64,000 nucleotides of DNA from Schwartzia succinivorans DSM 10502. Lineage in GTDB: Bacteria; Bacillota; Negativicutes; Selenomonadales; Selenomonadaceae. The notes beneath the pieces are model-generated. The model had not been told where the DNA came from. It saw only the letters and a program-made list of their open reading frames with translations, and did no database searches. Shown in pieces: positions 25,944-39,523 of this stretch (its first letter is position 1; each line of letters starts with the position of its first letter). The position numbers were made by a program, and so were the translations under genes. The DNA lies in contig NZ_FQUG01000004.1 in NCBI RefSeq assembly GCF_900129225.1, forward strand, positions 62,001 to 126,000. The letters are read 5' to 3'.

Positions 25944-26146
25944 TTTCGTTTCTCCTGTTTTTCCTTCTTGGCAAGCTCAAGCTTCGCCTTTTCCAATTCT
26001 TTTTCCTGCATCAATATCTTCTCTTTCTTTCCGTCCTTATACATCAGATAGAAAGCAACCGCTGAAAGAAGCGCTGCAGCAATATATAAAATCATAAGCT
26101 GCGGATCATCAAGAATACTCCACCATGAATTCAAAATTTTATCCAA
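25940..26146 (-). CDS. Small single-pass membrane protein
   Basis: A 68-residue protein with one hydrophobic segment (LMILYIAAALLSAVAFYLMY) followed by a strongly charged Lys/Glu helix likely in the cytoplasm (KILMQEKELEKAKLELAKKE). I do not recognise the family. The best start is the TTG at 26146 with GGAGG upstream; a TTG at 26161 has no ribosome site. Its stop overlaps the ATG of the long U32 gene (ATGA), so the two are coupled. The integrated element begins about 15 bp upstream, so its original promoter region may have been displaced. Confidence 0.7.
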   Translation of the reverse strand: MDKILNSWWSILDDPQLMILYIAAALLSAVAFYLMYKDGKKEKILMQEKELEKAKLELAKKEKQEKRK

Positions 26147-26162
26147 AATATTAACCTCCAAC

Positions 26163-26176
26163 TTGGCAAGAAAACA
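26163..26176. repeat. attL core direct repeat
   Basis: TTGGCAAGAAAACA, identical to 38873-38886. It lies between the integrase gene and the small membrane protein gene. On the minus strand it reads TGTTTTCTTGCCAA, matching the T-run of the scpB terminator at the other end. Confidence 0.85.
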
Positions 26177-26229
26177 AATTCTGAGTCTATACCCCTTTAT
26201 TTATAAGGATTCTAGCAATTCATTATCGA

Positions 26230-26250
26230 AAAAAGTAACCGAAAAGTAAC
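26230..26250. repeat. Possible integrase arm-type sites, left
   Basis: Two direct copies of AAAAGTAAC spaced 11 bp apart, between attL and the integrase gene. The related AGGTAACAAAAA pair is found near attR (38721-38740), as expected for arm-type binding sites. No binding evidence is available. Confidence 0.45.
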
Positions 26251-26252
26251 AT

Positions 26253-27308
26253 TTACTTTTGCAACTCATCTAAAAGATTTTCGATTTCTTGTTTGTCTTG
26301 CTTGACTTTGACATAGTAATCAAACATAACTTTTGTTGAGTGACCGAGTCTATCGGCTGCAACTGCCGGATTCATATTTTTTAGTATTAAATACGATACA
26401 TGTGCTTTTCTAAACGAATGTAATGTTACTTTTTTTAACTGCTCTCTATCGCAGAAATCTTTCAAGAATCGCAAAGTTGCATTCTCGGTTTTCTTGAAAA
26501 TGCGTTCGTTATCTGATATTTCATGTTCGTCAACGAATCTTTTAATTTTATCATACAAATCTTGATTAATAAATACTTCTCTATCTTTATGATTTTTCGT
26601 GTGTATGAGCGTTATTTCGTTCTTTGAGTTGAATGTCTTATTGATTTTTAGCTTGTATATGTTGCTTTCACACACAACATCGTCAGGTGTTAACGCTAAT
26701 ATTTCGCCAATCCTACAACCAGTCAAATAAAGCAACTCAAAAATGTGTTTATAATAATGATAACTCGGTCTTTCGCTAGTGTTCATAATGTTCATCGCTC
26801 TTTTGAATTCGTCGATTGTCCACCGTGGTGAATATTTTAGCGGTGACTGAGGTTTGTCAATCTTATCGAGCGGATTCTTCAGGTCGAGCATTCTTTCGAC
26901 ATACGCAAAAAAAGCATGTAAATACATGTACGAATTCGCTGCATACGATTCCGAGCGTTCTTTTATCTGTCTTTGCAAATAAAGATTGAAAAACATCGGT
27001 GTAAACGAAGATAATTCTTTATCGCCAAACTCTTTTTTAAATCGAGTCGTAAACGCTGATTTAATAGTATCAATCGTCGAAATTCTTAGTTTTTTTACAT
27101 TACTAATGTACGGAATATAGTTTAATTCGTAGAATTCCCAAAACGAGTGATTTGAACTCACTTTATATTGCATAAGAAAGCGTCGTTCTGCTTCCTGCGC
27201 TTCGTGCTTTGTCTTAAATCCACTTTTCTTAACGAGTCTTTTTTCAGCATCACGCGCGAAAAACATCCACTTTTTCCCTTTTTTTGTAGAATAAGATTGG
27301 ACAGACAT
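26253..27308 (-). CDS. int: Tyrosine-family integrase
   Basis: Site-specific recombinase likely responsible for integration and excision of the element. The 351-residue protein has an N-terminal AP2-like arm-binding region (KKWMFFARDAEKRLVKKSGF, about residues 12-31), a SAM-like core-binding domain and a complete catalytic domain. The catalytic residues are Arg199 (TGCRIGE), Lys238, His297 and Arg300 (LHSFR), His323 (LGHST) and nucleophile Tyr332. It lies 77 bp from attL, the usual position for an integrase. The ATG follows GAAAGG. Confidence 0.95.
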   Translation of the reverse strand: MSVQSYSTKKGKKWMFFARDAEKRLVKKSGFKTKHEAQEAERRFLMQYKVSSNHSFWEFYELNYIPYISNVKKLRISTIDTIKSAFTTRFKKEFGDKELSSFTPMFFNLYLQRQIKERSESYAANSYMYLHAFFAYVERMLDLKNPLDKIDKPQSPLKYSPRWTIDEFKRAMNIMNTSERPSYHYYKHIFELLYLTGCRIGEILALTPDDVVCESNIYKLKINKTFNSKNEITLIHTKNHKDREVFINQDLYDKIKRFVDEHEISDNERIFKKTENATLRFLKDFCDREQLKKVTLHSFRKAHVSYLILKNMNPAVAADRLGHSTKVMFDYYVKVKQDKQEIENLLDELQK

Positions 27309-27609
27309 ATATTCACAACCTTTCTTATTCTTTCTATTTTATCCTGTAAAAAGTGTGTTTTCAATCGTTGAAGCTGTTTTTTTTGCGTAAATTTAGACGA
27401 CAAGCTAATTTTTGCGTAAAAAAAATACGCTCAAATTCGCGTTTTAAGACGCTTTTTGAAAATCGAGAGTTATATTTATACTTGCGTTTTAAAAAAGTCG
27501 CTAAAAAACGCATTTAAACGCGAAATCGCTGAAATCCTTGATATTACTGGGTTTTAAGCACTTTTGCAGTAAAAAAAAGAGCCGATTCCTCGGCTCTTTG
27601 GCGGTTGTT
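27309..27609. other. Intergenic region between resolvase and integrase
   Basis: About 300 bp, strongly AT-rich, with several short GCGTTT/AAACGC words and one clear terminator (27571-27600). Short open frames overlapping the integrase start here lack ribosome sites. I see no gene. Confidence 0.6.
27571..27600 (-). terminator. Terminator after the resolvase gene
   Basis: AAAGAGCCGA paired with TCGGCTCTTT around GGAA, followed by a run of T on the minus strand. Confidence 0.88.
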
Positions 27610-28212
27610 TTATGCTTCTTTTTTGAGTTTTTTACGCTCTTCTGCAACCCACTTTTGTATCGTTGTCTTGCTAACTGAGCATTCTTTAGCCATGCGCTCA
27701 AAACTTGTCTCACGATTTAGCCATTTTTTATAAACTTGTGGCCAAAATTTCGGCTGCTTCTTTTTTGGACGCTTGTATTTTCCCTGTGCTTTCGCCAATG
27801 CTATGCCAGCGCGCTGGCGTTCTTTGCGAATATCGTTTTCTAATTGATACACTGCACCGAGAATTGCGATTATGCAATCACCTAATGGGCCTGCTGTATC
27901 TATTCCTTCTTTTATACTGTACAGTTTAGCTTTTTTCGATTTAATAGCGTCAACTATCGTTAGCAAATCTCTTGTGCTTCTTGCTAAACGAGAAAATTCA
28001 CGAATGATTAATACATCGTTTTCTTGCAAGTCGTCTAACATCTTCTGCAAGTTTGGGCGATTGTCTGTTGTCGTTCCGCTTGCTTCATCTGAATATATGT
28101 TTTCAGATGCGATTTCTTCGTTAAATTTGTCTTTTGCGTAGTCAATAATTTCTTTAATCTGCGGTGCAAGATGCTGTTCTTTTGTCGATACTCTCACATA
28201 AGCTTTTATCAT
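27610..28212 (-). CDS. Serine recombinase (resolvase/invertase family)
   Basis: A 200-residue small serine recombinase. It starts AYVRVSTKEQ with the nucleophile Ser9 and has EFSRLARSTRDLL with the conserved Arg residues, a long E helix and a C-terminal helix-turn-helix (ERMAKECSVSKTTIQKWV). Such proteins resolve plasmid multimers or invert DNA; with a plasmid replicon nearby, multimer or cointegrate resolution is the likelier role. A 25-bp palindrome at 28279-28303, upstream of its start, could be part of a res site. The ATG follows AAAGGGGT. Confidence 0.93.
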   Translation of the reverse strand: MIKAYVRVSTKEQHLAPQIKEIIDYAKDKFNEEIASENIYSDEASGTTTDNRPNLQKMLDDLQENDVLIIREFSRLARSTRDLLTIVDAIKSKKAKLYSIKEGIDTAGPLGDCIIAILGAVYQLENDIRKERQRAGIALAKAQGKYKRPKKKQPKFWPQVYKKWLNRETSFERMAKECSVSKTTIQKWVAEERKKLKKEA

Positions 28213-28278
28213 ACTGATTACCCCTTTTTGTTCTTTTACATTTAGAATGTCTGTTATTTGTCGTAGAACTTAAAATTT

Positions 28279-28303
28279 ATTAGTTATAAATCATATAACT
28301 AAT
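28279..28303. repeat. Perfect 10-bp inverted repeat upstream of the resolvase (candidate res site)
   Basis: ATTAGTTATA, five bases, then TATAACTAAT. Its size and place, within 100 bp upstream of a serine resolvase gene, fit a crossover subsite or an operator. Confidence 0.4.
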
Positions 28304-28371
28304 GTCTATGTATATATTATAGCAAAACATAAATTTGATTCTAAATTTTTCAGTATACCCAGAAAAACCGC

Positions 28372-28396
28372 AAAAAAAAGAGCCTTTCGGCTCTTT
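28372..28396 (-). terminator. Terminator of the small acidic-tail gene
   Basis: AAAGAGCC, TTTC loop, GGCTCTTT with an A/T run on both sides. It functions for the minus-strand gene ending at 28400. Confidence 0.85.
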
Positions 28397-28399
28397 GCG

Positions 28400-28564
28400 T
28401 TAAAACGGAACATCAACATTGATGCTTGAATCAACAGAATCAACGCTTGAATCATCATCATCATCGTTACTCATTGGATTTTCGATAATATACTTAAGCG
28501 GATTTTTTTGAAATTCAGCGCGTTGTTCTTCTGTCATTTGATAAAGTCTGCGAAACGAGTACAT
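28400..28564 (-). CDS. 54-residue protein with an SSB-like acidic C-terminal tip
   Basis: A small gene with the ribosome site GGAAGTGATACT before ATG, the same leader as the secreted 206-residue gene, and its own promoter and terminator. The product has a basic, helical first half (MTEEQRAEFQKNPLKYIIEN), then five consecutive Asp residues, a Ser/Asp stretch and the ending INVDVPF. Acidic tails ending D-x-P-F are the protein-interaction tip of bacterial single-stranded DNA-binding protein. There is no OB fold, so this would be an SSB-tip mimic or a linear peptide ligand. The function is unknown. Confidence 0.7.
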   Translation of the reverse strand: MYSFRRLYQMTEEQRAEFQKNPLKYIIENPMSNDDDDDSSVDSVDSSINVDVPF

Positions 28565-28598
28565 AGTATCACTTCCTTTCCTAACTAAATTTTTTAAT

Positions 28599-28640
28599 AT
28601 TATAGTTAAAATTTTTGCAATAGCAAATTTTTGCTATAAT
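28599..28640. promoter_or_regulatory. Divergent promoters around a palindrome
   Basis: Minus strand: TTGCTA, 16 bp, TATAAT (28599-28604) for the small acidic-tail gene. Plus strand: extended -10 TGCTATAAT with TATAAT at 28635-28640 for the CRISPR-like unit. The perfect inverted repeat ATAGCAAATTTTTGCTAT (28620-28637) covers the plus -10 and the minus -35, so one regulator could control both. Confidence 0.65.
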
Positions 28641-28673
28641 ATGAATGAAGCATAAAGCTTCAACTTCTTCCTT

Positions 28674-28821
28674 ATTATTCACCGCATAGGTGATTTAGAA
28701 TAAGTGCTGTTGTTCTTCATCACGCGCCTATTTGTTATTCACCGCATAGGTGACTTAGAATTTCAAGTGTTTCCAAATCTGCAGTAGCATCGAGTTATTC
28801 ACCGAATAGGTGACAAAGAGC
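28674..28821 (+). CRISPR. Minimal CRISPR-like array, type I-F-like repeats, no cas genes
   Basis: Three 28-nt repeats start at 28674, 28734 and 28794 with an exact 60-bp period, leaving two different 32-nt spacers (28702-28733 and 28762-28793). Each repeat has a stem TCACC/GGTGA around a 5-nt loop (GCATA or GAATA) and, in copies 1 and 2, the tail TTAGAAT. The architecture and the CCGNATAGG and CTTAGAA blocks mirror type I-F repeats, with stem bases changed in pairs. The third repeat is altered at its 3' end, where it merges into a terminator. A promoter and a 5' hairpin leader precede it. No cas gene is in the window. Confidence 0.78.
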
Positions 28822-28840
28822 CTTTTGGCTCTTTTTTTTT
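28815..28840 (+). terminator. Terminator of the CRISPR-like unit
   Basis: AAAGAGCC, TTTT, GGCTCTTT and a T-run. Its 5' arm is the altered tail of the third repeat, so the transcript would be about 195 nt from the promoter at 28635. Confidence 0.85.
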
Positions 28841-28880
28841 GTTTATTTTATGCCGTTCTGGAATATTTATACCATGGCGG

Positions 28881-29120
28881 AAAAACACTATCAAATAGTC
28901 AAAAAGAGCATTAAATACTTAAAAGTAATGTTAAGTAGTATCAAGTAGTGCGAAATAGTATTAAATACTTAAAAGTAGTATCAAGTGGTATTAAATGATA
29001 TGAAATAATATGAAATAGTAAAAAGTAGTATTAAGTAATCAAAAGTAGCTGCATTTTCTGCGAAGTAGTGCTAAATACTGCTAAACACTACTATTCATTG
29101 CTAAATAATGCTAAATAAAC
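28881..29120. repeat. Array of about 20 degenerate 10-bp repeats in exact 10-bp phase
   Basis: Consecutive 10-mers fit the consensus NNAARTAGTA, for example TTAAGTAGTA, TCAAGTAGTG, CGAAATAGTA and TGAAATAGTA. They are most regular from 28911 to 29050. One helical turn per unit puts all units on the same DNA face and should bend the DNA. Possible roles are a partition (centromere-like) site, a filament-forming protein's binding site or an origin accessory. No ParA/ParM-like gene is visible. Confidence 0.8.
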
Positions 29121-29129
29121 GACAAAAAA

Positions 29130-29151
29130 ACGCTATTTCTAGCGTATTTTT
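29130..29151 (+). terminator. Hairpin with T-rich tail after the 10-bp array
   Basis: ACGCTA, TTTC, TAGCGT followed by ATTTTTTAATTTT, preceded by an A-run, so possibly bidirectional. Confidence 0.6.
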
Positions 29152-29184
29152 TAATTTTATTTTAATTCTGACATAAAAATTGTG

Positions 29185-29227
29185 AATTTGAATTTAAAAT
29201 TTTAATTCTGGATTTTAAATTCAAATT
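29185..29227. repeat. Perfect 16-bp AT-only inverted repeat
   Basis: AATTTGAATTTAAAAT (29185-29200) and its exact reverse complement (29212-29227), 11 bp apart, in a nearly GC-free stretch between the 10-bp array and the structured RNA. It may be a melting region or an operator. Confidence 0.6.
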
Positions 29228-29317
29228 GACAATTAAAATTGTGAATTAAAATCCTGAATTTTTTGTTCGTTTTGCTTTAAAATTTGTCGCGGACGAAAAA
29301 TTTGTTATAATATTAAT

Positions 29318-29469
29318 GAGTTCGGGGCAACTCATCGTTGTCTGCAATACTCACGAGTATTGCAGATGTTTGGTGCGTCGCCCCAAGCTTAATGTCTTTT
29401 GCTATCTTTGATAGCAGTTTGTCGCATACGCGACTCAAAAAAAACCGCTCTGATGAGCGGTTTTTTTTT
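29318..29469 (+). ncRNA. Compact structured RNA with predicted pseudoknot
   Basis: An extended -10 promoter TGTTATAAT (-10 at 29306-29311) precedes the transcript. Stem 1 is ATGAGTT/AACTCAT (29316-29335) and its loop CGGGGC can pair with GCCCC at 29380-29384, enclosing a 10-bp hairpin (29342-29365). Two more small hairpins follow (GCTATC/GATAGC at 29401-29415; GTCGC/GCGAC at 29421-29434). An intrinsic terminator (29443-29469) ends the unit. No open frame of note lies inside. It does not match any RNA family I can name with confidence. Confidence 0.6.
29443..29469. terminator. Bidirectional terminator between the ncRNA and the 93-residue gene
   Basis: AACCGCTC, TGAT, GAGCGGTT with an A-run on the left and a T-run on the right. 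It serves the plus-strand RNA and the minus-strand gene ending at 29468. Confidence 0.9.
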
Positions 29470-29749
29470 ATAATTCTATGATTTCTTTGCATTTTCGCAA
29501 AAATCTCCGCAAAGTCTTCTGTTCTTTGTATGTATATCCAAGGTTGTACAATTCTTCACGATTATTCGCTAATGCAAACTTTAACGACAATGTGCTTGCG
29601 TATTCGTCAATTTCTAACAAGTCTTCGCACATGTTTATCCACTTTTCCCACATTAAATTTGCTTCTTTATATGTCATTTTGAACGGTTTCGCTGCAACGT
29701 TGTTCTTTCGTGCTTGTTTTAGCATCGCTTTGATGCGTGTTCTTAACAT
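29468..29749 (-). CDS. Hypothetical 93-residue basic helical protein
   Basis: A small protein with a strong ribosome site (AAAGGAGTGATAAT before ATG), lying 16 bp downstream of the second tyrosine recombinase and sharing its leader style. The sequence is highly basic at the N-terminus (MLRTRIKAMLKQARKNNVAA) and predicted mostly helical, with several Lys/Arg-Glu segments. I recognise no domain. Position suggests an accessory DNA-binding factor of the recombinase, or a protein acting at the nearby 10-bp array; both are guesses. Confidence 0.7.
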   Translation of the reverse strand: MLRTRIKAMLKQARKNNVAAKPFKMTYKEANLMWEKWINMCEDLLEIDEYASTLSLKFALANNREELYNLGYTYKEQKTLRRFLRKCKEIIEL

Positions 29750-29765
29750 ATTATCACTCCTTTAT

Positions 29766-30725
29766 TTATTTAATTCCTAAATATCTATCAACAATGTCGA
29801 GGCGACCGTGGAAAAGCGCATTTGCACATATTGCGCGTGCTTCATCATGCGTTTTACCGCTGGCACGACAAACATTATATAAATTTTGACAAAAATTGTA
29901 GCGGAACGGGTGACTTCCACTATACTTTTCGCCGGTCTTTTCGCAAGCTTCTTTAATTTCTGCTAAATATTTTTTGTAGTCGATAAGCTGAAAGCTTGTT
30001 TTTCCGCCACTGAACTCTTTCAGTTTGTCGTATATTTCTTTTGATACTTTGAATTCTTTGACAGTATACCCAGCTTTTGACACTACGAATAGCGTATTAT
30101 TCGAATTTAGCTTGATATTGCTTGTATTCATTACGCGTAAGCCGTAGTTTAACTGGAGAGTTGCACAGAGCTTCGCTTCGTCTGTTTTTAAGTTTGCTAT
30201 GACATTCTCTGGGTTCTTAAACGCTCTGTTTTCGTGCGTTTCGTTCATCTCTATCTTTAAATCTGCTCTGATTTCCGCGATTACTTTTGAAAAATCTTGC
30301 TTTTCGTATCGCATTTCGCCGAAACGCTCGATTTGCGATGCGTTAAGCATATCATCTAACTTGTTAAATGCAGTTAAATCGCTCATTATCGTCTCATACG
30401 AGCAATTTTGCTCTATTCTGTACGCTACAAAATCGCGGATTTGTTCTGGTTTATATGTGTAATGATTTCGCCCAAGGCCCTCCGCCCGGCAAAACTTAAA
30501 AAACTGTCTGCACGAACTTTTGTAGTTAGCTAGCGTCTTGTCGTTGTGAATGCCGACTTTCCCCATTAAATTCTGCCTATCGCATTTTTGTCCCTCATCT
30601 CGTAGTTCTTGTTTTGCTTCCGCGGTTTCTTCCCTGCGAGATTGCGAATCGTTGATTTTAATGTACTCTGATTCGTGAAAAATATTGTCAACTTCGCTCT
30701 TTACAGACATGAATTTCTGCGACAT
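29766..30725 (-). CDS. Second tyrosine recombinase (XerC/D-like catalytic domain)
   Basis: A 319-residue protein with a charged N-terminal extension (about residues 1-60), a SAM-like core-binding domain (TLANYKSSCRQFFKFCRAEG) and a complete tyrosine recombinase active site. That site has Arg197 (YGLRVMN), Lys217, His272 and Arg275 (SHPFRYN), His306 (FHGR) and Tyr315 (DRYLG). It diverges strongly from the integrase at 26253. It may be a plasmid dimer-resolution enzyme or an ancestral element recombinase. The start has GAGGTGATAAT upstream. Its 1.1-kb upstream region holds RNA-like structure rather than genes. Confidence 0.85.
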   Translation of the reverse strand: MSQKFMSVKSEVDNIFHESEYIKINDSQSRREETAEAKQELRDEGQKCDRQNLMGKVGIHNDKTLANYKSSCRQFFKFCRAEGLGRNHYTYKPEQIRDFVAYRIEQNCSYETIMSDLTAFNKLDDMLNASQIERFGEMRYEKQDFSKVIAEIRADLKIEMNETHENRAFKNPENVIANLKTDEAKLCATLQLNYGLRVMNTSNIKLNSNNTLFVVSKAGYTVKEFKVSKEIYDKLKEFSGGKTSFQLIDYKKYLAEIKEACEKTGEKYSGSHPFRYNFCQNLYNVCRASGKTHDEARAICANALFHGRLDIVDRYLGIK

Positions 30726-30839
30726 ATTATCACCTCTTTTTTGTTTTTTCAGTGCTTAAAAGCACACGAAAACACGCTAAATTGCGATATTTAGCGTACT
30801 TTAGTATGCTTTTAAGCTTGTTTTTTTTGCTTTTTTTGC

Positions 30840-30845
30840 TACAAT
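30840..30845 (+). promoter_or_regulatory. Extended -10 promoter for the large structured region
   Basis: TTTGCTACAAT with -10 TACAAT at 30840-30845 and a TTGTTT-like -35 at 30818-30823 (16-bp spacer). It belongs to the same TG-N-TATAAT style used by the other plus-strand RNA units of the element. Confidence 0.55.
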
Positions 30846-30851
30846 CCAGCG

Positions 30852-31416
30852 CAGGTAAGCAACCTGACCGTTCTTACAGGTCTGACGGTGATGTAACTTG
30901 TAATTTACAACTTCATACTGGCGACCAACCCCAGTATTGCATTTTCGAGACTACTTCGCGAGTGACTAATTCGCTATAATCTCAAGTATTCGTCATCACG
31001 GTTCTCTTAAAAAAGAGGTAACGGCTTCCGCGCGCCGTACTACAGTCAACTTCTGTCATTACACGGGCAGAAACGTGTTCGTTTAGTGCATCTTGAAAAG
31101 CTTAATGTCTTTGAAAAATGGTACGTCTGAAAAGCTTAATGTCGTTCGGCGGTCTTACAGACCGCACAAATTTGAAAATTTGATACATAAAAATCACCCT
31201 TTCGTTTTTTTCATTTGATGCGTCTTTGAAACTTAATGTCTTTGTGTGTATGTCATAGACATACGAATTTAGCACTATCCCTGCGTCCAGAAGCACGCTT
31301 ATTTACTGGGGAACAGCAGTGCTCAGCACTAAACCCTGTATTATCATAGATAATACTAACGCTTGGGAAAAGCTGTGCTACATCTTTTTGCCAGTAAAAA
31401 CTGGCGGTTGATACAC
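30852..31416 (+). ncRNA. Candidate large structured noncoding RNA or long 5' leader
   Basis: About 560 nt without a credible gene but crowded with short hairpins on the plus strand. Examples are ATACTGG/CCAGTAT (30916-30936), ACGGC/GCCGU (31021-31038), GCGGTCT/AGACCGC (31148-31165), GTATGTC/GACATAC, GTATTATC/GATAATAC and GCCAGT/ACTGGC just before an ATG. It has a promoter at its left end and three copies of a 27-nt motif shared with the RNA at 29318. Large ornate RNAs are known from plasmids and phages, but I cannot assign this to a family. Boundaries are uncertain. Confidence 0.5.
31086..31243 (+). repeat. Three copies of a 27-nt motif shared with the upstream ncRNA
   Basis: Copies at 31086-31112, 31121-31146 and 31217-31243, plus a fourth at 29373-29399. 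The shared core is (G)TGCGTC, four to six variable bases, then AAAGCTTAATGTC. Three of the four copies are followed within 10 nt by a perfect triloop or near-triloop hairpin. This suggests a repeated RNA domain or protein-binding site. Confidence 0.7.
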
Positions 31417-31587
31417 ATGAATTATATTCAACTTTTTTCGAATTTCAAATTTAAAGATTTAGTTTTGCAAAAAAAATTTAGTATAATTTTAAAAACCGAC
31501 GCGCGCCGGCTTTGCCGGCGGAGAGTCGTCCTCGGCGCTCGACGCAAGGCTCCACGCTCGCACCGCGGACGAGGTCGAAAGCTGTAA
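31417..31587 (+). other. Weak 56-codon frame sharing the leader of the next gene
   Basis: The ATG at 31417 is preceded by the leader GGNGGTTGATACACATGA, almost identical to that of the 31897 gene. The frame runs into the GC-rich hairpin island and becomes Arg-rich, which is unlikely to be a real protein. It may be a leader peptide, a truncated duplicate or a chance frame. A hairpin GCCAGT/ACTGGC sits on the ribosome site. Confidence 0.2.
31482..31487 (+). promoter_or_regulatory. Possible promoter -10 upstream of the hairpin island
   Basis: TTTAGTATAAT with TATAAT at 31482-31487 in an A/T-rich stretch, reading toward the hairpin island and the plus-strand gene at 31897. The -35 is poor. Confidence 0.4.
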
Positions 31588-31809
31588 CCAGCTTTGTATA
31601 TGCGAGCATATACAAAGCTGTCACACGCTACACTTGCAACAAAATACACTACGCTTCGCTCCACGCTGGGCGAGGCTTCGCCCCGCCTTTAGGTGACGCA
31701 CTGCGTCACCGTGGGCTTCGCCCACATTTTCGCTTACGCGAAATAAATTTTTGTGACCGCAGAATTTGCGCTCACAAAAATTTTCAAAAACGAGCTTTGC
31801 TCGTTTTTG
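31504..31809. repeat. Island of eight short hairpins with 3-5 nt loops
   Basis: GC-rich against the surrounding AT-rich DNA. Stems include CGCCGGC/GCCGGCG (31504-31520, loop TTT), a perfect 14-bp stem with loop CGAG (31589-31620), GGTGACGC/GCGTCACC (31692-31710), GTGGGC/GCCCAC (31711-31725), TTTCGC/GCGAAA (31728-31743), AATTTTTGTGA and its complement (31746-31782), and an 11-bp stem with loop TTT (31785-31809). No gene is credible. It is either a structured 5' leader of the next gene or a DNA-level structure. Confidence 0.8.
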
Positions 31810-31896
31810 AAAAAATGCGTTTCTGCTTTTTTCGTAGCACTAAAAAAAGCACCCACCAATTTAGTATGAATTGTATGAATTCGGAGGTTGATACAC

Positions 31897-32568
31897 ATGA
31901 AAGAACGCTTTGATGCTAGTACGCAAAAGAAAATGTTTACTATTTCTGAGATTGAAGAAGCACGAAAAATCGTGTCAGATGATTTAGTAAAAGATGAACT
32001 TTGGAAGTATTTTGCTAAACGTACATCAACAGAAAGAACTAAAGTTTTAAATCTTCAGTTAGAGATTAACTTAAATTTCAAGAAAGCTTTAAATTTAAAA
32101 ATGGCAGAAGTATTCGCAATAGCGATGTATTTCGTCAAGAAGAAAAATCATAATTACTTCTCGACAGTAGAACAAATCAAAGTAAAAAAAGAGCGCGAAG
32201 TTAAACGCAAAAACAAGAAGCGAAGAGCAAATCAAAAGACAGTCTGTGCGATGTATATGTCCGAGCTTCATCAACTGAAGCTCGGCGGAATGAGTACGAA
32301 AGATGCTATCGAAGTATTGTATTCGAAGCATCGAAGCGACTTCTGGGGACAGAAGCCTACAGCGCAGATGATGAATCGCTACTATCTGGCGTGGCGAAGA
32401 GAAAAGAATATAGCACAAGAACAGATAGTTCAACCGCCAGCGGTAGAACCGCCCCGGGAGGTTGAAAATGCTGTGCTTGATGTTTTTAAAAAAATAGCAG
32501 AACGAGCAGAAGAACCGCCCGTGGCGGTACCTCTGCTCCCGGGCAACGATTGCTCCGCTGAAATCTAA
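31897..32568 (+). CDS. Hypothetical 223-residue protein, only plus-strand gene
   Basis: The only convincing plus-strand gene of the window. The ATG at 31897 has GGAGG nine bases upstream. The product is basic and mainly helical in the middle, with a Lys/Arg run (KKEREVKRKNKKRRANQK). A segment MSTKDAIEVLYSKHRSDFWG could be helix-turn-helix-like, and the C-terminal tail is Pro/Glu-rich. I recognise no family. A DNA-binding or RNA-binding role for the element is possible: single-protein partition systems such as StbA and pSK1 Par have similar size, but no motif proves it. Confidence 0.72.
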   Translation: MKERFDASTQKKMFTISEIEEARKIVSDDLVKDELWKYFAKRTSTERTKVLNLQLEINLNFKKALNLKMAEVFAIAMYFVKKKNHNYFSTVEQIKVKKEREVKRKNKKRRANQKTVCAMYMSELHQLKLGGMSTKDAIEVLYSKHRSDFWGQKPTAQMMNRYYLAWRREKNIAQEQIVQPPAVEPPREVENAVLDVFKKIAERAEEPPVAVPLLPGNDCSAEI

Positions 32569-32604
32569 AAATCAGCTACGCTAATTTTCAAAATTCAGCT
32601 ACGC

Positions 32605-32638
32605 AAAAAAGCACACTTCAAAGCTGAAGTGTGCTTTT
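32605..32638 (+). terminator. Terminator of the plus-strand gene
   Basis: AAGCACACTTCA, loop AAGC, TGAAGTGTGCTT followed by TT, preceded by an A-run. Confidence 0.85.
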
Positions 32639-32829
32639 GAAAGCTTAATAAATCAACATTTTACTGCACTTTTGCGTTTATTTGCGTCTATTTCGCATTT
32701 TCTACCGCTAAAGGTATAAATACACTCAACGAGCGGAAAAAACGCGATATGACGCGAATTTAAGCGTGTTTTTGAATGCGAAAAACGAAAATCAGCGAGC
32801 AAATTTAAAAAAATCTGCTCGCGCACAAT

Positions 32830-32868
32830 AAAAAAACACTAATCAAATTAATTGATTAGTGCTTTTTT
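32830..32868. terminator. Bidirectional terminator after the secreted 206-residue gene
   Basis: CACTAATCAA paired with TTGATTAGTG around a short AT loop, with an A-run on the left and a T-run on the right. Confidence 0.85.
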
Positions 32869-32899
32869 ATTGTGTTAGTATAAATTTGTTTATAGTATG

Positions 32900-33520
32900 T
32901 TAGAACTGTTTATTGTTTTTGAGCATTTCGACAGCCCAATCAGCCCCGGCGGATTCGGCTGCATTCTTTGCAAGCTTGTATATATTCTTATCTTGAAGCG
33001 GATTTGAGTTTGTCTGGTCGTAGCTAATTGAATATATATATCCGTTTTCTATTTTGTAGAGATTTTCAAGAAGCGAACAATAACGCGATATTTCATATAT
33101 ATCTGCGTTTAATGTATCTGAATGTCCGATGTACAGATTTTGCGGATTGTCTTGATGTCTACTTTCTTCGTAGCATGACATTAAGACAATCTTTTTAACT
33201 GGCAAAGTAAAAAGGTATTCATTCTCTTTAATCAAACGGTCGATACATTGTTCGACTGTTTCTTTTGTATGTCTGTTTTTTTGTAAATACAAGCGTCCGC
33301 GTGAATCTCCGTGGACTTCAATGTAAACTGCTTGTTCGCTCGGTTCGTATGCAAAATTGAGCATTTTGTTTTCTGCACTTCTGTCGTATTGCTTTAAAAG
33401 CTTCGCTTTAAGCATCACTACTTTATAGCCTGACGCATCTATTTTTGCATCAATTCTTTGTGCGAAGCAGATATTTGAAAAGCATAAACATATAAAAACA
33501 AAGAGAAAAATCTTCTTCAT
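32900..33520 (-). CDS. Secreted protein with clan CD (caspase-like) protease signature
   Basis: A 206-residue protein with a classic signal peptide (MKKIFLFVFICLCFSNICFA, cleavage likely after Ala20). A hydrophobic strand followed by His-Gly (VYIEVHGDSRG, His70-Gly71) and, 46 residues later, a hydrophobic strand followed by Ser-Cys (KIVLMSCYEE, Cys116) match the catalytic dyad layout of clan CD cysteine peptidases (caspases, gingipains, C80, legumain). Spacing also fits. Overall similarity cannot be tested here, so catalytic activity is a prediction. The start has GGAAGTGATACT upstream. It follows the large secreted gene. Confidence 0.75.
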   Translation of the reverse strand: MKKIFLFVFICLCFSNICFAQRIDAKIDASGYKVVMLKAKLLKQYDRSAENKMLNFAYEPSEQAVYIEVHGDSRGRLYLQKNRHTKETVEQCIDRLIKENEYLFTLPVKKIVLMSCYEESRHQDNPQNLYIGHSDTLNADIYEISRYCSLLENLYKIENGYIYSISYDQTNSNPLQDKNIYKLAKNAAESAGADWAVEMLKNNKQF

Positions 33521-33560
33521 AGTATCACTTCCTTCGTTAACATTTTATCATTTTTTGTAT

Positions 33561-33590
33561 AAAAAAGGCGGTAAAAACCGCCCTTTTTAT
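33561..33590. terminator. Terminator after the 719-residue gene
   Basis: GGCGGT, AAAA, ACCGCC with an A-run on the left and CTTTTT on the right. It acts on the minus-strand gene ending at 33592. Confidence 0.85.
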
Positions 33591-33591
33591 T

Positions 33592-35751
33592 TCATGTATC
33601 AAAAATTTGATTTAATAACGCAACATTGATTTTTACTTGTTGCTCTATTTCTTTTTGTATTTCTTTTGTAAAATCGTCTACACAACTTCCAAAGCTTCTT
33701 CCGCTGCTTTTTTGTTGTGTTTTATTTTCTTTCTGTGTACGTTTAACTTTTGCGGTGTTTAAGGTGTTAACAGTAAAATCGCTAATACGCGAAGCTTTTT
33801 TATTTGTGCTTGAAAGATTTTGCATGATATTGTTGAAAGCTTCTTTTATGTAGATGTTTTTTGTGTTTTCATCACTTACATAAACACGCGTTATTGTCGT
33901 ATCATCAACTGTTTTTGTTTCAACGATTAAAGCATCTTCGTTAATATTAAACGCATCTGCAAATTCAGCTAATGTATATGTTTCGTTTGTTGCTACATCA
34001 GTTAACAGTGCATTGTTGTTTTCATCAAAAGAAGTACTAACAACTATATTACCGTCATTTACTGCGATTGTTGATACATCATCTTGCACGATATTATTTT
34101 TAACAATATCTTTGTATGTGTTTATAGTAGCTTCATCTTCAATATTAAATATTGCGTCTTGCTTATCTGTTAAGATGACAGAAGAATCATCAATAACAAC
34201 TCCAAGTCTGCCACCATCGCTATGAAGTAACGCATTTTCAATATAAATTTTTGAAGATGCTTTAATATCCTCGCAAGTCTCTTTGCTCATTTTAACTTCA
34301 GCAGGCATTGATTCAGTTACTTTAAAAGCTTCTTCATTAAGCATTTGTGCATAACCATTGTTAACATCAAATGAACAAATAGAGTTTTCTTCGTCATAGC
34401 GTACATTCGATACATCGCCAGCTATAGAAAATTGCTCTATTTCTTCGGATATTTGCGTTAATTTAATGTCTGCAAACTGTTTCTTTTGCTCGTCCGTTAA
34501 TACTGTAACTTCGTCATATACTTTAAAACTCGTCTTAAATGTAGCTTTGCGTATATCTTTGTCATAGACATATATAACGATATTGTACTGTCCCGGTGTT
34601 GCTTCTTTACTAAGAAGAAATTCTTTGTTTTCTTTTGTAGTAAGTGTTTCTATTTCTTTTGATGGCATTTGAACACGAACAACAAGTTTGTCGCTTTCTG
34701 TATCTTTAACATTAATAGTCGCACTGAGTTTTTCGTAAGCAGTAGGTATCTTTGGATTAAATTTGATGTCTACTTTTGCGTTCTTATCTATATTAGACTG
34801 TTGAAATGTTAAATCTTTGCTAAGATGTGTTGTTGTGTCAGTACCCGCAGAATCTTGTTTTTTAGAGTCTTTTTTGTTATTTATACCCCCGGCGAAGATA
34901 GCACCAGCAGACAACAGGTCTTTTAAGATATTGCTTTTATTTTCTTTTACGGAATTATGTTTCGTTACTTTGCATTGCTGTTGTGCTGTGTCCCAACTAT
35001 AAGAATATGTTCCGTCGTTTGGTGGACAACAATGCGTAGCATCTGCTTGCACCCAACCATCGATAGCGCAGGAACCGTCGCTTGTAGCGAGAGTAGCATT
35101 AGTGAGGGTATCGCGGTTAATTTGATACTTTTCTGTATTATCTATTTGAGCGAAGTCGCTTGCAGAAAGTTTACTCATATCTATACTTGAGTCGGCAGAG
35201 CAGACCATGCGACTATCGGAAAGCTTTATGCAATTAGTTCCGCTGATATGCCCGTCCGCATCTATAGAACGGAACTTGTAGTATGGATTATCAAAAGATG
35301 TTACGAAGTATTTCTTGTCGCTATCTGTATATACTGCATTTGCTGGTACTGAATAAATTTGATGCTCTGCTGTGTTGTCTATATTTAGTGATTTCACTTC
35401 TTTTGAGTTATCGTTACGAACTGTTGTATAGTTACATGATACTGTGCGAGAATCGCTTGAAACTGAGCATACTTCATATTGCTTACCGAGGCTTACAGTG
35501 CTTGTGCTATTGTCGCTTGCAGTAGTTTCGACAGTCAAATCTGATACTTTAACATACGCTTTACTGTTATCAGAATAAGAGAAAGTAGCAGAACCATTGT
35601 CTAAGTCGCTGAAATCGTTTTTCGTTAATGCTTGTGAAGCTTTAACTGCAAAAGTATCATCAGCGGAGGACTCGGCTGCATACGCAAGCGGTGAAAAGAA
35701 CATCTGTGTAGTCAACAGAACTGCTATATGTTTGTTTATACTTTTTAGCAT
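33592..35751 (-). CDS. Large secreted protein with Cys pairs and an Ig-like region
   Basis: A 719-residue exported protein. It has a signal peptide (AVLLTTQMFFSPLAYA, cleavage near Ala25), then a long Ser/Asp/Thr-rich extracellular-type region. Cys residues are at 95, 106, 174, 184, 228, 241, 242 and 260, including CAIDGWVQADATHCCPP. A beta-rich segment at about 322-412 resembles an Ig-like fold (PGQYNIVIYVYDKD). The C-terminus is Lys/Gln/Ser-rich. I see no LPXTG, SLH or autotransporter domain. It may be a surface adhesin or fitness factor. GGAGATGA precedes the ATG. The neighbouring protease-like protein may act on it. Confidence 0.78.
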   Translation of the reverse strand: MLKSINKHIAVLLTTQMFFSPLAYAAESSADDTFAVKASQALTKNDFSDLDNGSATFSYSDNSKAYVKVSDLTVETTASDNSTSTVSLGKQYEVCSVSSDSRTVSCNYTTVRNDNSKEVKSLNIDNTAEHQIYSVPANAVYTDSDKKYFVTSFDNPYYKFRSIDADGHISGTNCIKLSDSRMVCSADSSIDMSKLSASDFAQIDNTEKYQINRDTLTNATLATSDGSCAIDGWVQADATHCCPPNDGTYSYSWDTAQQQCKVTKHNSVKENKSNILKDLLSAGAIFAGGINNKKDSKKQDSAGTDTTTHLSKDLTFQQSNIDKNAKVDIKFNPKIPTAYEKLSATINVKDTESDKLVVRVQMPSKEIETLTTKENKEFLLSKEATPGQYNIVIYVYDKDIRKATFKTSFKVYDEVTVLTDEQKKQFADIKLTQISEEIEQFSIAGDVSNVRYDEENSICSFDVNNGYAQMLNEEAFKVTESMPAEVKMSKETCEDIKASSKIYIENALLHSDGGRLGVVIDDSSVILTDKQDAIFNIEDEATINTYKDIVKNNIVQDDVSTIAVNDGNIVVSTSFDENNNALLTDVATNETYTLAEFADAFNINEDALIVETKTVDDTTITRVYVSDENTKNIYIKEAFNNIMQNLSSTNKKASRISDFTVNTLNTAKVKRTQKENKTQQKSSGRSFGSCVDDFTKEIQKEIEQQVKINVALLNQIFDT

Positions 35752-35906
35752 ATTGATTCATCTCCTTCTTAGTGTTTACAAGTGTTGCGAAGATTTAAGG
35801 GACGCTATAATTATATGTAATTCTATCAAAATTACAAATTATAACGCAAAATAAACGAAAAACTAAATCATCGTTTTTTGCGTTTAATTCGCTTTATTTC
35901 GCATTT

Positions 35907-35944
35907 TTATGCTAATCAAGTATATTTTTACTTGATTAGCATAA
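35907..35944. repeat. Long AT-rich hairpin between the primase-like and secreted genes
   Basis: TTATGCTAATCAAGTA, a 6-nt spacer and its exact complement, a perfect 16-bp stem. It lacks a good T-run, so it may be an RNA processing site, an operator or a weak terminator. Confidence 0.6.
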
Positions 35945-35976
35945 TCTCGCGAAATAGAGCTATTCACGCTTAAATA

Positions 35977-36822
35977 TCATATAGTTGCAAGACAATTATT
36001 CCAACTCGCTTTAGACGGTGATATTCTTCTGTAAATTTTTTCGTTTGAGATGTCATTAATACATTTTGAAGCTATGACTACTTCTTTGATTTGTTCATTC
36101 AATAAGATTTTATTTATCGCTCGGATTCTTTGCGGATTACCAATACTTACAAATAAGCCATTGCGTATTTTATTAAATCTTTTATTTAGTTCGTAAAGGC
36201 TCATAGCTTCTAAAGCAGTAGTGCATATGTAAGCAGTATCATAGTTTTCTATGTCTGCGAAAGACCAACATTCGGAAGGTGATACGCCATACAATAATCT
36301 ATAGAATTCGTTTCTTAAATCTGTTCCAACACGCTCCCCGTAGTTTTTTTCTTTATTCAAAAAAACTATGTTATCAAATCCGTAGTTGTCAGAAAGATAA
36401 AGCAAATTGTCAGATTCTAATTTATTGATTAAATCCTTCGATATCTTCTTCATCGTTAAGTAGTTAACTAATGCGTCATCATAGTTTAATTTACTTGGAA
36501 TACTGAATTGATGAGGTTTATTCTTTTCAGAAAATTGATATTCGTCTTTCGATAGTTCGCAAACTGCTGAATAAAAGTCATAGTTCAAATATCGCACAAG
36601 AAAATCGATAGCGTTAGCACTTGCAAAAGTACCAGCTTTGTTTATTTGTTTACCACTTGTGAGGTCGATATAACCGTACCCGGTTTTAGATATTTGTATA
36701 GCTGGGTTTGACTTCATTTCTATGTAGTTCAAACTCACTGATTTAAACAAATCGCTATGATTTTTTTCACAAAACTTATATAAACTTGCTTTTCTTGCTT
36801 TTGTTATTTTATCTGATGGCAT
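35977..36822 (-). CDS. Primase-like protein (DUF3991/TOPRIM-type) with decayed TOPRIM residues
   Basis: The 281-residue protein resembles plasmid DUF3991-TOPRIM proteins. Its N-terminal half (YGYIDLTSGKQINKAGTFAS, AIDFLVRYLN) looks like the CHC2-like domain. VNYLTMKKISKDLINKLESD matches DUF3991. DTAYICTTALEAMSLYELN aligns to the TOPRIM strand that normally carries a catalytic Glu, replaced here by Thr, and no DxD motif follows (VVIASKCIND). A catalytic role is therefore doubtful; a structural replication role is possible. The start is the ATG at 36822 behind AAAGGAG, within a small hairpin; a TTG at 36831 is less likely. Confidence 0.7.
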   Translation of the reverse strand: MPSDKITKARKASLYKFCEKNHSDLFKSVSLNYIEMKSNPAIQISKTGYGYIDLTSGKQINKAGTFASANAIDFLVRYLNYDFYSAVCELSKDEYQFSEKNKPHQFSIPSKLNYDDALVNYLTMKKISKDLINKLESDNLLYLSDNYGFDNIVFLNKEKNYGERVGTDLRNEFYRLLYGVSPSECWSFADIENYDTAYICTTALEAMSLYELNKRFNKIRNGLFVSIGNPQRIRAINKILLNEQIKEVVIASKCINDISNEKIYRRISPSKASWNNCLATI

Positions 36823-36831
36823 AGTTGCCAA

Positions 36832-37346
36832 CTCCTTTCTAGTATATATATATTTTTTTTCGGAATTGATATAACCGCATCTGTTTAGTTTGGTACTTTA
36901 AGATATTCGCGGTTAAACTTGAATATGTTCTTAAAGTTGATTTTTTCTTGTAAAAAGAACCTCAGCTTTTCTCTTCTCTATGGCAAAAGGAAGAGCCGTT
37001 GCCCCGGGACGGATTTCTCCGAAGTTTTCTTTAATAAAAACTAGCGTCTGGTGAACTATTTATTTAATATCGCGAGTAGCGTATATTAAGTTAACGACTA
37101 GATGCGTTCATATCAATTCCGCTTGTAATTAGTATTTATATGTACAACTGTGTAGGTCGTCACTTTACTACTAGTTTTTTTAAGTTAGCTCACCACTTTA
37201 TCACTCAAAATCATGCTCAGGTCACCACTTTATTACTCATTAAGTTTGCTTCTGCTCCGCAGTATATACATATATATATTAAAAGCGTATACGCAAACGC
37301 AAAAATGCTTTCAAATGCTGATTTTTCGCAGTTTTACAGAATTTGC
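36832..37346. other. Origin-proximal noncoding region
   Basis: About 515 bp without a credible gene. It contains AT-rich tracts (TATATACATATATATATT at about 37263), degenerate iterons (37160-37238), a CGGA-GAAA-TCCG hairpin on the minus strand near 37010 and a GCGTATACGC palindrome. It probably forms the unwinding part of the replication origin. No clear DnaA box was found by eye. Confidence 0.55.
37160..37238 (+). repeat. Degenerate iterons, second family
   Basis: TCACCACTTTATCACTC (37190-37206) and TCACCACTTTATTACTC (37222-37238), 32 bp apart, plus a partial TCACTTTACTAC at 37160-37171. They share TCACCANTTT with the main iterons and similar spacing, suggesting weaker Rep-binding sites. 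Confidence 0.65.
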
Positions 37347-37475
37347 TATTCACCAGTTTGCACATATTATTTTTGCTCGTATTCACCAGTTTGCACATAT
37401 TTTTTACTCGTATTCACCAGTTTGCACATATTTTTTGCCATTTATATTGCTCGTATTCACCAGTTTGCACATATT
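37347..37475 (+). repeat. Four iterons at the replication origin
   Basis: Four identical 22-bp direct repeats beginning TATTCACCAGTTTGCACAT at 37347, 37380, 37411 and 37454, at intervals of 33, 31 and 43 bp (about three or four helical turns). The last one abuts the stop codon of rep. Direct repeats beside a winged-helix initiator define an iteron-type theta replicon. Confidence 0.9.
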
Positions 37476-38453
37476 TTATAATTTTAAATCTCCGCTCTCT
37501 ATCGCTGCAATTTTCTTGTTATCTTTTTCTTTTTGAGATTGTTTGTTAACAATCAATTTAATTGAGAATAGCTTTTTCTTTAGTTTTATTGGTGTGTAGT
37601 CTATGATTTCTTTTTCTTTTTTTGCTAATTCAAGAAAATCAAAAACCCTTTTTACAAACCTGTCGTAATGTGCTTTTGTTATTTTTTCGCTGGCCATTTC
37701 TTCAACTTTCTTCTGCAAGTCTATCATTGTGATAGTATCTTGCATTTTACCTTTTTTAATGCCACCAATTCTCTGAATAAGATAATCAGCTATAGCTATT
37801 TGAACATCATTTGCACAGTTTGATTTAAGTAACTTCACTGGAACATTAATAAAAGTGTTCCAAATCTCGTTATACCTCATTAAAATGGGAACCTTATCAA
37901 TTTTATAGCGTATTTTCTGCTCACCGCGCCATGTTCTGAACCCAGTTGTAAGCTGAATCATCTGTGTTCGAATAATAAAAGTGTCATTGAAAAAGTACGG
38001 CTTTATTAAAGAATAGTCTTTGCCCGTTTCTTCTCTTCGTGCGTATTCGTCGCAGATATTCAAACAAATAAACGTTGTTGAAAGCTTTCGCATAGTAGCA
38101 TCGAGTTTTAAAAGGTTTCTTTCTCCGCGACCAAGACCGCTTTTCAAAAGTATCTCATTCGCAGAAAATGAGTAGTTATCATCTTTCTTTTCTTTAATTA
38201 GTGTGCAAACTGCTTGAAATATACGCATGTCAGTTGGTGTTAAGCGTTTGCTTACTACTGCTGACGGGTTCCATGGTTCGTCTGATTTGATTATTTTTTG
38301 TTCCTTTTTCTTTTTTAAATCTTCTTCGAAAATTAGCTTGACTTTCGTGTAGATTCCACCATGCGTTCCGCTGATTTTCACGCGCGTATCAGTCGAAGTG
38401 AGATTCTTATTGACATTACTGTTCTGCATTTTGAAGTTGTTTTTCTTTGCCAT
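37476..38453 (-). CDS. rep: Plasmid replication initiator protein (two winged-helix domains)
   Basis: A 325-residue Rep protein. It has a basic N-terminus, a first winged-helix region (RLTPTDMRIFQAVCTLIKEK, LLKSGLGRGERNLLKLDATM) and a second (NDVQIAIADYLIQRIGG, TMIDLQKKVEEM, YDRFVKRVFDFLEL). This is the architecture of iteron-binding initiators. Iterons lie directly downstream of the stop. The best start is the ATG at 38453 with AAAGGAAG upstream, enclosed by a TGCCA-ACTA-TGGCA hairpin; a GTG at 38462 is the alternative. A terminator and an antisense RNA lie in the leader, so expression is probably attenuated. Confidence 0.88.
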   Translation of the reverse strand: MAKKNNFKMQNSNVNKNLTSTDTRVKISGTHGGIYTKVKLIFEEDLKKKKEQKIIKSDEPWNPSAVVSKRLTPTDMRIFQAVCTLIKEKKDDNYSFSANEILLKSGLGRGERNLLKLDATMRKLSTTFICLNICDEYARREETGKDYSLIKPYFFNDTFIIRTQMIQLTTGFRTWRGEQKIRYKIDKVPILMRYNEIWNTFINVPVKLLKSNCANDVQIAIADYLIQRIGGIKKGKMQDTITMIDLQKKVEEMASEKITKAHYDRFVKRVFDFLELAKKEKEIIDYTPIKLKKKLFSIKLIVNKQSQKEKDNKKIAAIESGDLKL

Positions 38454-38478
38454 AGTTGGCACTTCCTTTCTTTACAAT

Positions 38479-38510
38479 AAAAAAACGGCAATGATAAAGA
38501 ATCATTGCCG
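38479..38510 (-). terminator. Attenuator terminator in the rep leader
   Basis: CGGCAATGAT, TCTTT, ATCATTGCCG plus a run of seven T residues, only about 25 bp before the rep start. A 13-bp competing helix can form between minus-strand CCGAACTTGCTTT (38572-38584) and AAAGCAGGTTCGG (38508-38520, one G-U pair). The latter overlaps the first three bases of the terminator stem, so the two structures exclude each other. Confidence 0.85.
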
Positions 38511-38561
38511 AACCTGCTTTTATTTTTCGTATCTTTTTGATTTTTTTGCTATAATGTTATA

Positions 38562-38637
38562 TAGAAAGATGAAAGCAAGTTCGGTTGTTCTTCATCATGT
38601 GCCTTCTGAGTAGTTGGTAGCTATTCAGAGGGCTTAT
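38562..38637 (+). ncRNA. Antisense countertranscript RNA controlling rep
   Basis: An extended -10 promoter (TTTGCTATAAT, -10 at 38550-38555) drives a plus-strand RNA opposite the rep leader. It contains a hairpin GATGAA/TTCATC (38570-38596) and ends in a strong 13-bp hairpin (38601-38633) with loop TTGGTAG, which includes a YUNR-type UUGG kissing motif, and a U-rich tail. It would base-pair with the rep leader and sequester the antiterminator arm at 38572-38584, as in pIP501-type copy control. Confidence 0.8.
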
Positions 38638-38641
38638 TTAT

Positions 38642-38647
38642 ATTATA
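38642..38647 (-). promoter_or_regulatory. rep: rep promoter
   Basis: Minus-strand extended -10 TTTGTTATAAT (-10 at 38642-38647), giving a leader of about 180 nt that holds the two hairpins complementary to the antisense RNA and the attenuator. Confidence 0.7.
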
Positions 38648-38691
38648 ACAAAAACTTATTTCAACTCGAAAAAATAACAACGCAAAAACAC

Positions 38692-38720
38692 AAAAACCCG
38701 CGATTTCACGCGGGTTTTTT
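38692..38720. terminator. Bidirectional terminator upstream of the rep promoter
   Basis: CCCGCG, six-base loop, CGCGGG with A-run and T-run on the two sides, insulating rep from attR-side transcription. Confidence 0.85.
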
Positions 38721-38740
38721 AGGTAACAAAAAGGTAACAA
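38721..38740. repeat. Possible integrase arm-type sites, right
   Basis: Two direct copies of AGGTAACAAAAA, about 130 bp inside attR, related to the AAAAGTAAC pair at the left end. Confidence 0.45.
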
Positions 38741-38872
38741 AAAAGTTTTACTGTATTGCATTTTCTCGCGTTTTTCGATTTTTTTAACGCACGAATGTAC
38801 TAAAAAAGTTGAATTTTGCCTAAAAACACGTTTAAAATGCAATTCTCGAAGTCTCAAATTTCTGTACTGATT

Positions 38873-38886
38873 TTGGCAAGAAAACA
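38873..38886. repeat. attR core direct repeat
   Basis: TTGGCAAGAAAACA, identical to attL. It overlaps the T-run of the scpB terminator, so the target appears to be a terminator region rather than a tRNA gene, and integration keeps the terminator intact. Confidence 0.85.
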
Positions 38887-38907
38887 CACCCTGCCGCAGA
38901 GTGTGTT
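38876..38907 (-). terminator. scpB terminator
   Basis: Minus strand AACACACTC, loop TGCGGCA, GGGTGTGTT then TTCTTGCC. The tail is shared with the att core. Confidence 0.75.
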
Positions 38908-38923
38908 GAAATCTCATTTAATA

Positions 38924-39523
38924 TTATTCATTTCCCTCATCAGAGGAAATGCTTTCCTTATCTCCCAAATTCATCAGCAAAAGCTGCTCTGCCTGTTCAT
39001 TATCTATATCCGGTTCAGGAAGAGCAGGAAGCTCATCCAATGATTTTAAACCAAAGGACTGCAGAAAAATATCCGTTGTGCCGTAAAGAAAAGGTCTGCC
39101 GATTACGTTTTTCCTGCCAACCTCTGTAACAAGCTCCCTGGCAATCAGCTGTGCCAGAACACGCTCTGCCTTGACGCCTCGGATTTTTTCGATTTCCTGC
39201 TTTGTAATAGGCTGCTTGAATGCAATTATTGATAAGGTTTCCATAGCCGCTTTTGAAAGCTTTCTGTCTGATACCTCTGCCAGCTTCTCTACATACGCAA
39301 AGCACTCGGGCCTGGTAACAAGCTGCCAGCCTCCAGCTGTCTCCTGAAGCATAATTCCACGCGTTTCAAGGTCACGCTCCAACGCTTCAAGCAGTTCATG
39401 AAGTGCTTCTTCATCCACTTCCAGAATAGAACAAAGCTGTTTTTCTGAAACAGGTTCCCCACCGGCAAATAATACTGCCTCAAGCGGTTTTTTCATTTCA
39501 TTCAAAAACATAATCCTCTTCAT
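38924..39523 (-). CDS. scpB: Segregation and condensation protein B
   Basis: ScpB is the winged-helix dimer partner of kleisin ScpA in the SMC condensin complex. Two tandem winged-helix domains are visible (KPLEAVLFAGGEPVSEKQLCSIL; LSIIAFKQPITKQEIEKIRG, RPFLYGTTDIFLQSFGL). The length of about 199 residues is normal. The start overlaps the end of scpA and is uncertain among the GTG/ATG at 39526/39523, the ATG at 39511 or a TTG at 39505. The coding sequence is intact; the integrated element begins after its terminator. Confidence 0.93.
   Translation of the reverse strand: MKRIMFLNEMKKPLEAVLFAGGEPVSEKQLCSILEVDEEALHELLEALERDLETRGIMLQETAGGWQLVTRPECFAYVEKLAEVSDRKLSKAAMETLSIIAFKQPITKQEIEKIRGVKAERVLAQLIARELVTEVGRKNVIGRPFLYGTTDIFLQSFGLKSLDELPALPEPDIDNEQAEQLLLMNLGDKESISSDEGNE

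Follow-up and report, generated by a model that had tools for sequence, protein, structure and literature searches.

The window analysed here, a 64,000-nucleotide stretch of the genome of Schwartzia succinivorans DSM 10502, contains an integrated plasmid-like element of ~12.7 kb (26163-38886) flanked by exact 14-bp direct repeats, TTGGCAAGAAAACA. One copy of the direct repeat (26163-26176) lies next to an integrase gene and the other (38873-38886) beside the flanking chromosomal gene. The integrase, at one end of the element, is a tyrosine integrase (26253-27308, minus strand; PF00589, E 3.5e-18), and a serine recombinase (resolvase) is encoded on the same strand at 27610-28212. Carriage of the CRISPR array described below by an integrated plasmid-like element, as claimed in a preliminary description of the locus, is thus borne out. 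A 54-aa open reading frame without a Pfam match (28400-28564, minus strand) is divergent from the array; its acidic tail ends in DVPF, resembling the C-terminal tail of single-stranded-DNA-binding proteins.

The array consists of three 28-nt repeats and two 32-nt spacers on the plus strand, at an exact 60-bp period (60 and 60 bp), the repeats beginning at 28674, 28734 and 28794. Repeat 1 (R1, 28674-28701, ATTATTCACCGCATAGGTGATTTAGAAT) and repeat 2 (R2, 28734-28761, GTTATTCACCGCATAGGTGACTTAGAAT), the copy closest to type I-F repeats, have the stem, the loop and the handle TTAGAAT, with T rather than A as the last base (handles UUUAGAAU and CUUAGAAU, respectively). Repeat 3 (R3, 28794-28821, GTTATTCACCGAATAGGTGACAAAGAGC) keeps its hairpin, which is needed to end the second crRNA, and is degenerate mainly past that hairpin, in its 5'-handle part, where it is merged with the terminator. 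No later spacer or crRNA would use the R3 handle. Spacer 1 occupies 28702-28733 and spacer 2, which is without a significant target, 28762-28793. A leader hairpin (TGAAGC-ATAAA-GCTTCA, 28646-28662) stands upstream, and an intrinsic terminator (28815-28841; a stem, 28815-28834, and then a stretch of T residues) overlaps the end of R3. The predicted transcript folds better than shuffled sequences (z -3.15; 1 of 200 shuffles equally good). The preliminary description had reported the repeats, spacers, leader hairpin and fused terminator correctly. The promoter that it also reported fares less well: an extended -10 element, TGCTATAAT, is readable at 28632-28640 (plus strand) as a weak candidate, but a two-hexamer promoter scan of the plus strand just 5' of the array found none.

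This is a real CRISPR-type array. Its geometry (28-nt repeats, 32-nt spacers, 60-bp period) is that of type I-F, and R1 and R2 have the type I-F repeat form, with a 5-bp stem, a 5-nt loop and a TTAGAAA-like handle. With two spacers, no adjacent cas genes and a mobile element as its carrier, it has the attributes of the mini-CRISPR arrays borne by mobile genetic elements (MGEs). Directly downstream lies a degenerate 10-bp tandem pattern (TATTAAATAC/AAGTAGT-like, 28889-29115). At 29315-29475 (plus strand) there is a locus for a very stable structured RNA (fold z -10.2), with TATAAT upstream and a terminator; no Rfam match was found within 26000-40000.

What kind of repeat is it? R2 agrees at 23 of 28 positions with the cas-linked I-F repeat of one genome of the host family (G045, GTTATCCGCCGCATAGGCGGCTTAGAAA). 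Four of the five differences fall in two stem pairs, in each of which both bases have changed with pairing preserved, and the fifth is the last base, in keeping with the type I-F-like repeat with paired stem changes that had been proposed from the array. Family I-F repeats match the array repeat at up to 23/28, and no other 28-mer of the window does better than 17-19/28. None of the sampled family arrays has the TCACC/GGTGA stem, and the searches turned up no matching Cas partner in the clade. Outside the family, the core found here, TCACCGCATAGGTGACTTAGAA, recurs in a long cas-linked array of the Psychrobacter plasmid pA11BP5 (NZ_MN657021.1), so a related repeat linked to cas genes does exist. 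The two are alike in the identical 22-nt repeat core, the 60-bp period and the plasmid carrier; they differ in that the Psychrobacter locus is gammaproteobacterial and its long array accompanies a complete I-F operon (cas1f, cas3f, csy1-3, cas6f). A type IV locus (L011; csf5-csf1-csf2-csf3, NYSS01000182.1) has a repeat, GTGATTCACCGCATAGGTGATTTAGAAG, identical to the array repeat at 25/28 positions and the same 60-bp period, but there cas genes are present, and they are of type IV. (The NYSS01000182.1 contig is labelled Planctomycetota, yet the neighbours of the csf operon look gammaproteobacterial, a possible case of misbinning.) Judged by its sequence, the repeat is of a genuine CRISPR kind, either I-F or type IV; the repeats of the family and the locus in Psychrobacter favour I-F.

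The basal stem pair of the array repeat is U6-A20, which also occurs in the cas-linked Psychrobacter array, whereas it is C6-G20 in 25/25 of the family I-F arrays read (25 loci beside cas6f genes). C6 and G20 are reported to be crucial for binding and processing by Cas6f (PMC10651486); the array repeat lacks this basal pair, on which the Cas6f enzymes characterised depend. Because of this U6-A20 pair, a family (resident) Cas6f may not accept or process the array. When Cas6f residues were compared at the alignment positions that we take to correspond to R102 and Q104 of PaCsy4, Arg was kept throughout, which does not single out a reader of pair 6-20. Unless the array is unprocessed, there must be a partner in the niche, of the Psychrobacter I-F type (or of type IV). 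Three divergent I-F loci (L044, L045 and L046, in genomes G145, G167 and G154) have short Cas8f-like, Cas5f, Cas6f and Cas7f proteins and the repeat GTGTACCGCCGTGTAGGTGGTTTAGAAG or one close to it; a PADLOC scan, which covered L044, gave no match for its neighbouring open reading frames of 441, 328 and 505 aa.

The array can be called I-F-like and cas-less but does not amount to a full I-F system. Searches of the entire genome (20 contigs) for three markers only, Csy4, Csf2 and Cas1, support its designation as an orphan: neither Cas6f (Csy4) nor Csf2, the marker sought for the csf genes of type IV, was detectable. The only cas1 detected in the host belongs to a type III-like locus (L009, C17:188000-199291) with weak Cas10/Csm1-Cmr2 and Csx20 matches and an array, within which the contig ends, whose 37-nt repeat is unrelated to the repeat considered here. 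With no detectable Cas6f and only this unrelated type III-like locus in the host, a resident I-F complex is not what the array borrows here. Of the preliminary suggestion that it borrows a host or co-resident I-F complex, a co-resident partner is left as a possibility, although none was seen. Csy4/Cas6f occurs above the curated cut-off in 25/189 genomes of the host family, and at E <= 0.001 in 26 genomes, covering 13/30 genera. As the assembly is in 20 contigs, a plasmid may be missing from it.

The element also appears to encode its own replication control. A 328-aa gene (37476-38462, minus strand) is a putative replication initiator (Rep), so named from its context of attenuated leader, control RNA and iterons only. 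The protein had no match in a protein family search, its structure model was unusable (pLDDT 36.6), and the collections searched contained no useful relatives of either the Rep-like or a primase-like protein, with one weak match for Rep. Four iteron-like repeats (TATTCACCAGTTTGCACATAT, repeat family D1, 37333-37480) follow the gene. (They have TATTCACC in common with the CRISPR repeat, but at 8 nt only this is likely due to chance.) An attenuator terminator is predicted in the rep leader (38486-38510, minus strand; leader fold z -7.23), the 5' arm of which could alternatively pair with a predicted pre-emptor, CCGAACTTGC, the reverse complement of 38575-38584. Opposite the leader, on the plus strand, lies a predicted copy-control antisense RNA (ctRNA) of ~80 nt (38562-38640; fold z -5.63), with a first hairpin and a terminator hairpin (stem 38601-38633). 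Its predicted promoter is an extended -10 element read from the sequence, again TGCTATAAT (38547-38555, plus strand); the two-hexamer promoter scan found none at this site. The predicted layout is that of antisense-controlled attenuation as in pT181, pIP501 and pSK41 (PMC5703833), which likewise have a ctRNA of ~80 nt ~100 nt upstream of rep and a leader with a terminator-like stem and a pre-emptor. This comparison concerns the replicon of the element, not the array, and differs in that the Rep here matches no family.

The main clue, which the preliminary description missed, lies in spacer 1: it significantly resembles the antisense RNA predicted for the copy control of the element's own rep. 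The match is to 38577-38608 (plus strand), a segment made up of the loop, the 3' stem arm, the linker and the start of the terminator of the ctRNA, with 25/32 identities. No shuffled spacer reached 25 (0/1500 in the 64 kb, 0/5000 in the element), and when 421 real spacers (those of the I-F arrays of the family together with those of the outside loci L007 and L011) were compared with the element, the best match was 23/33. A blastn search with the ctRNA region as the query also finds spacer 1 (E 0.036). The differences are unevenly distributed: 0/14 in the stem-arm stretch (spacer 1 positions 1-2 and 9-20), 2/6 in the loop, 2/4 in the linker and 3/8 in the terminator arm, the ctRNA loop GUUCGG being GUGCUG in spacer 1. 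In control RNAs of the ctRNA type, loop changes alter incompatibility specificity. The pattern of differences is as expected, then, if spacer 1 corresponds to an orthologous control RNA that differs in specificity, and the simplest reading would be that its source was a sister plasmid with a different incompatibility type. The 25/32 match to the element's own predicted ctRNA would thus imply a related plasmid as the target. Of the seven differences between spacer 1 and the element's own copy, those at spacer positions 5 and 7 fall within the I-F seed, and the flank of this copy is GC, not CC. Together, the differences and the non-CC flank should spare it.

Searches for the putative target itself were negative. 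No exact protospacer of either spacer was found in phages, plasmids or IMG/VR, near matches being at chance level; IMG/VR also lacked the array repeat. In 379 genomes of the class, no exact protospacer was found, and the ctRNA core pattern occurred at two sites of the own genome and in nine other matches. These nine were rejected as sister ctRNAs, as all lie in an open frame of at least 139 aa and none in a ctRNA-like setting. Spacer 2 was considered as a match to the Rep gene at 38094, but that 14-nt match includes 3 repeat bases, the 11-nt part in the spacer is reached by ~13% of shuffles, and the pairing energy is ordinary. Conversely, family I-F spacers as guides against this element gave matches at chance level.

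What could such an array be for? The best explanation, which we hold to be just about probable, is that it is a plasmid-borne, cas-less mini-CRISPR of the I-F kind that serves in conflict between plasmids and needs Cas proteins in trans. A short transcript (~28647-28840) would be cut at the base of each hairpin by a Cas6f-type nuclease from the host or a co-resident element, giving two crRNAs, each with an 8-nt handle, a 32-nt spacer and a 20-nt repeat hairpin. With the first crRNA, an I-F complex would be directed at the copy-control region (antisense RNA/rep leader) of a sister plasmid, which, having a differing control-RNA loop, could not be excluded by ordinary RNA-based incompatibility. 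The rival plasmid would be cleared or repressed and the element's own copy left alone. In this scheme we infer that the array is transcribed and processed, that a Cas partner and a sister plasmid exist, and what becomes of the rival.

There are precedents for parts of this scheme. The mini-arrays of the viruses SPV1 and SPV2 (Medvedeva et al. 2019, PMC6858448) also have one or two spacers, a leader with a promoter and no cas genes, and they carry a spacer against a close relative, the orthologous locus of the carrier being mutated, which prevents self-targeting. They differ from the present case in that the carrier here is plasmid-like, the target would be a copy-control RNA locus, and the relative is read from spacer 1 only. 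Viral mini-arrays moreover are reported to share their repeat with a host CRISPR, whereas the array repeat was not found in the sampled family genomes and differs from all host-family CRISPRs sampled. The orphan CRISPR arrays of plasmids (Pinilla-Redondo et al., PMC9071438) are likewise short, cas-less and plasmid-borne, with a putative plasmid target; the swapped stem pairs and the direct link to a replication-control region set the present array apart.

The same idea can be cast with the mechanism left wider, the array being an incompatibility weapon whose spacer, derived from the ctRNA of sister plasmids or shaped like it, removes relatives that escape ctRNA incompatibility, via either an orthogonal I-F-type Cas6 that has adapted to the swapped stem or Cas-free antisense action. 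In this form it is a tentative and somewhat doubtful proposal.

Might the array instead be the surviving end of an earlier I-F array, a functionless passenger? The lack of a Cas partner, the degenerate R3 and the presence of two spacers only would suit such a remnant, and plasmid orphan arrays, which are shorter than cas-linked ones, may be remnants (PMC9071438). However, the hairpin and handle of R1 and R2 are intact, R3 has decayed mainly beyond its hairpin, a promoter-like element and a strong terminator tightly flank the array, and the match of spacer 1 is specific and sister-plasmid-like. Decay is thus an unlikely explanation.

A role as RNA anti-CRISPR appears less likely still. Here the three repeat hairpins would act as decoys like the Racrs: by binding Cas6f or Cas7f, they would block the I-F system of an incoming host and so shield the plasmid, with the spacers incidental. 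In favour of this are the common occurrence of type I-F in the host family and an array that combines a promoter-like element with a lack of cas genes; plasmid-encoded solitary repeat units are known, and RacrIF1 and its like also place an I-F-like repeat on a mobile element without cas genes (PMC10651486). Yet Racrs are solitary, whereas there are three repeats here, at exact 60-bp spacing and with two full 32-nt spacers, of which the first has a meaningful match. A decoy for family Cas6f should also retain the C6-G20 pair, and a C6G/G20C mutant of RacrIF1 lost both binding and activity (PMC10651486); in the array this basal pair is U-A.

Similarly improbable is an antisense RNA acting independently of Cas proteins, in which the spacer 1 RNA would pair with the rep leader of the element or of a sister plasmid and lower Rep, thus forming a second incompatibility RNA. 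Such an RNA would require no Cas proteins, and none suitable was found in the host. The predicted pairing of spacer 1 with the rep leader (-31.9 kcal/mol, 14 contiguous pairs) was equalled by none of 2000 shuffled spacers, the best of which reached -26.1. However, the true ctRNA segment would pair far more strongly (-58.0 kcal/mol), the loop bases where pairing should begin are altered in spacer 1, and the I-F repeats with their intact handles and exact 28/32 spacing would be left unexplained. A CreA-like guide, a degenerate mini-array directing host Cascade to repress a toxin or rep promoter of the same element by a partial match, is very improbable: spacer 1 does partly match the rep control region, and CreA genes carry a repeat or two, ectopic and diverged (PMC9458426, PMC8501985; I-F case PMC10097628), but the seed is broken at positions 5 and 7, the flank is GC rather than CC, no toxin was recognised adjoining the array, there are two full spacers, not one, and the best match falls in the control region of rep rather than being a PAM-proximal one at the promoter of a neighbouring toxin RNA, as in CreTA.

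Arrays without cas genes are known from plasmids but are mostly unexplained. If the array does serve in inter-plasmid conflict, its first spacer, tied as it is to a replication-control RNA, would link CRISPR with classical plasmid incompatibility, and it may be that plasmids keep mini-arrays as a means of excluding relatives with an altered control-RNA loop. The swapped basal stem pair raises the further question of which Cas6 reads such arrays.
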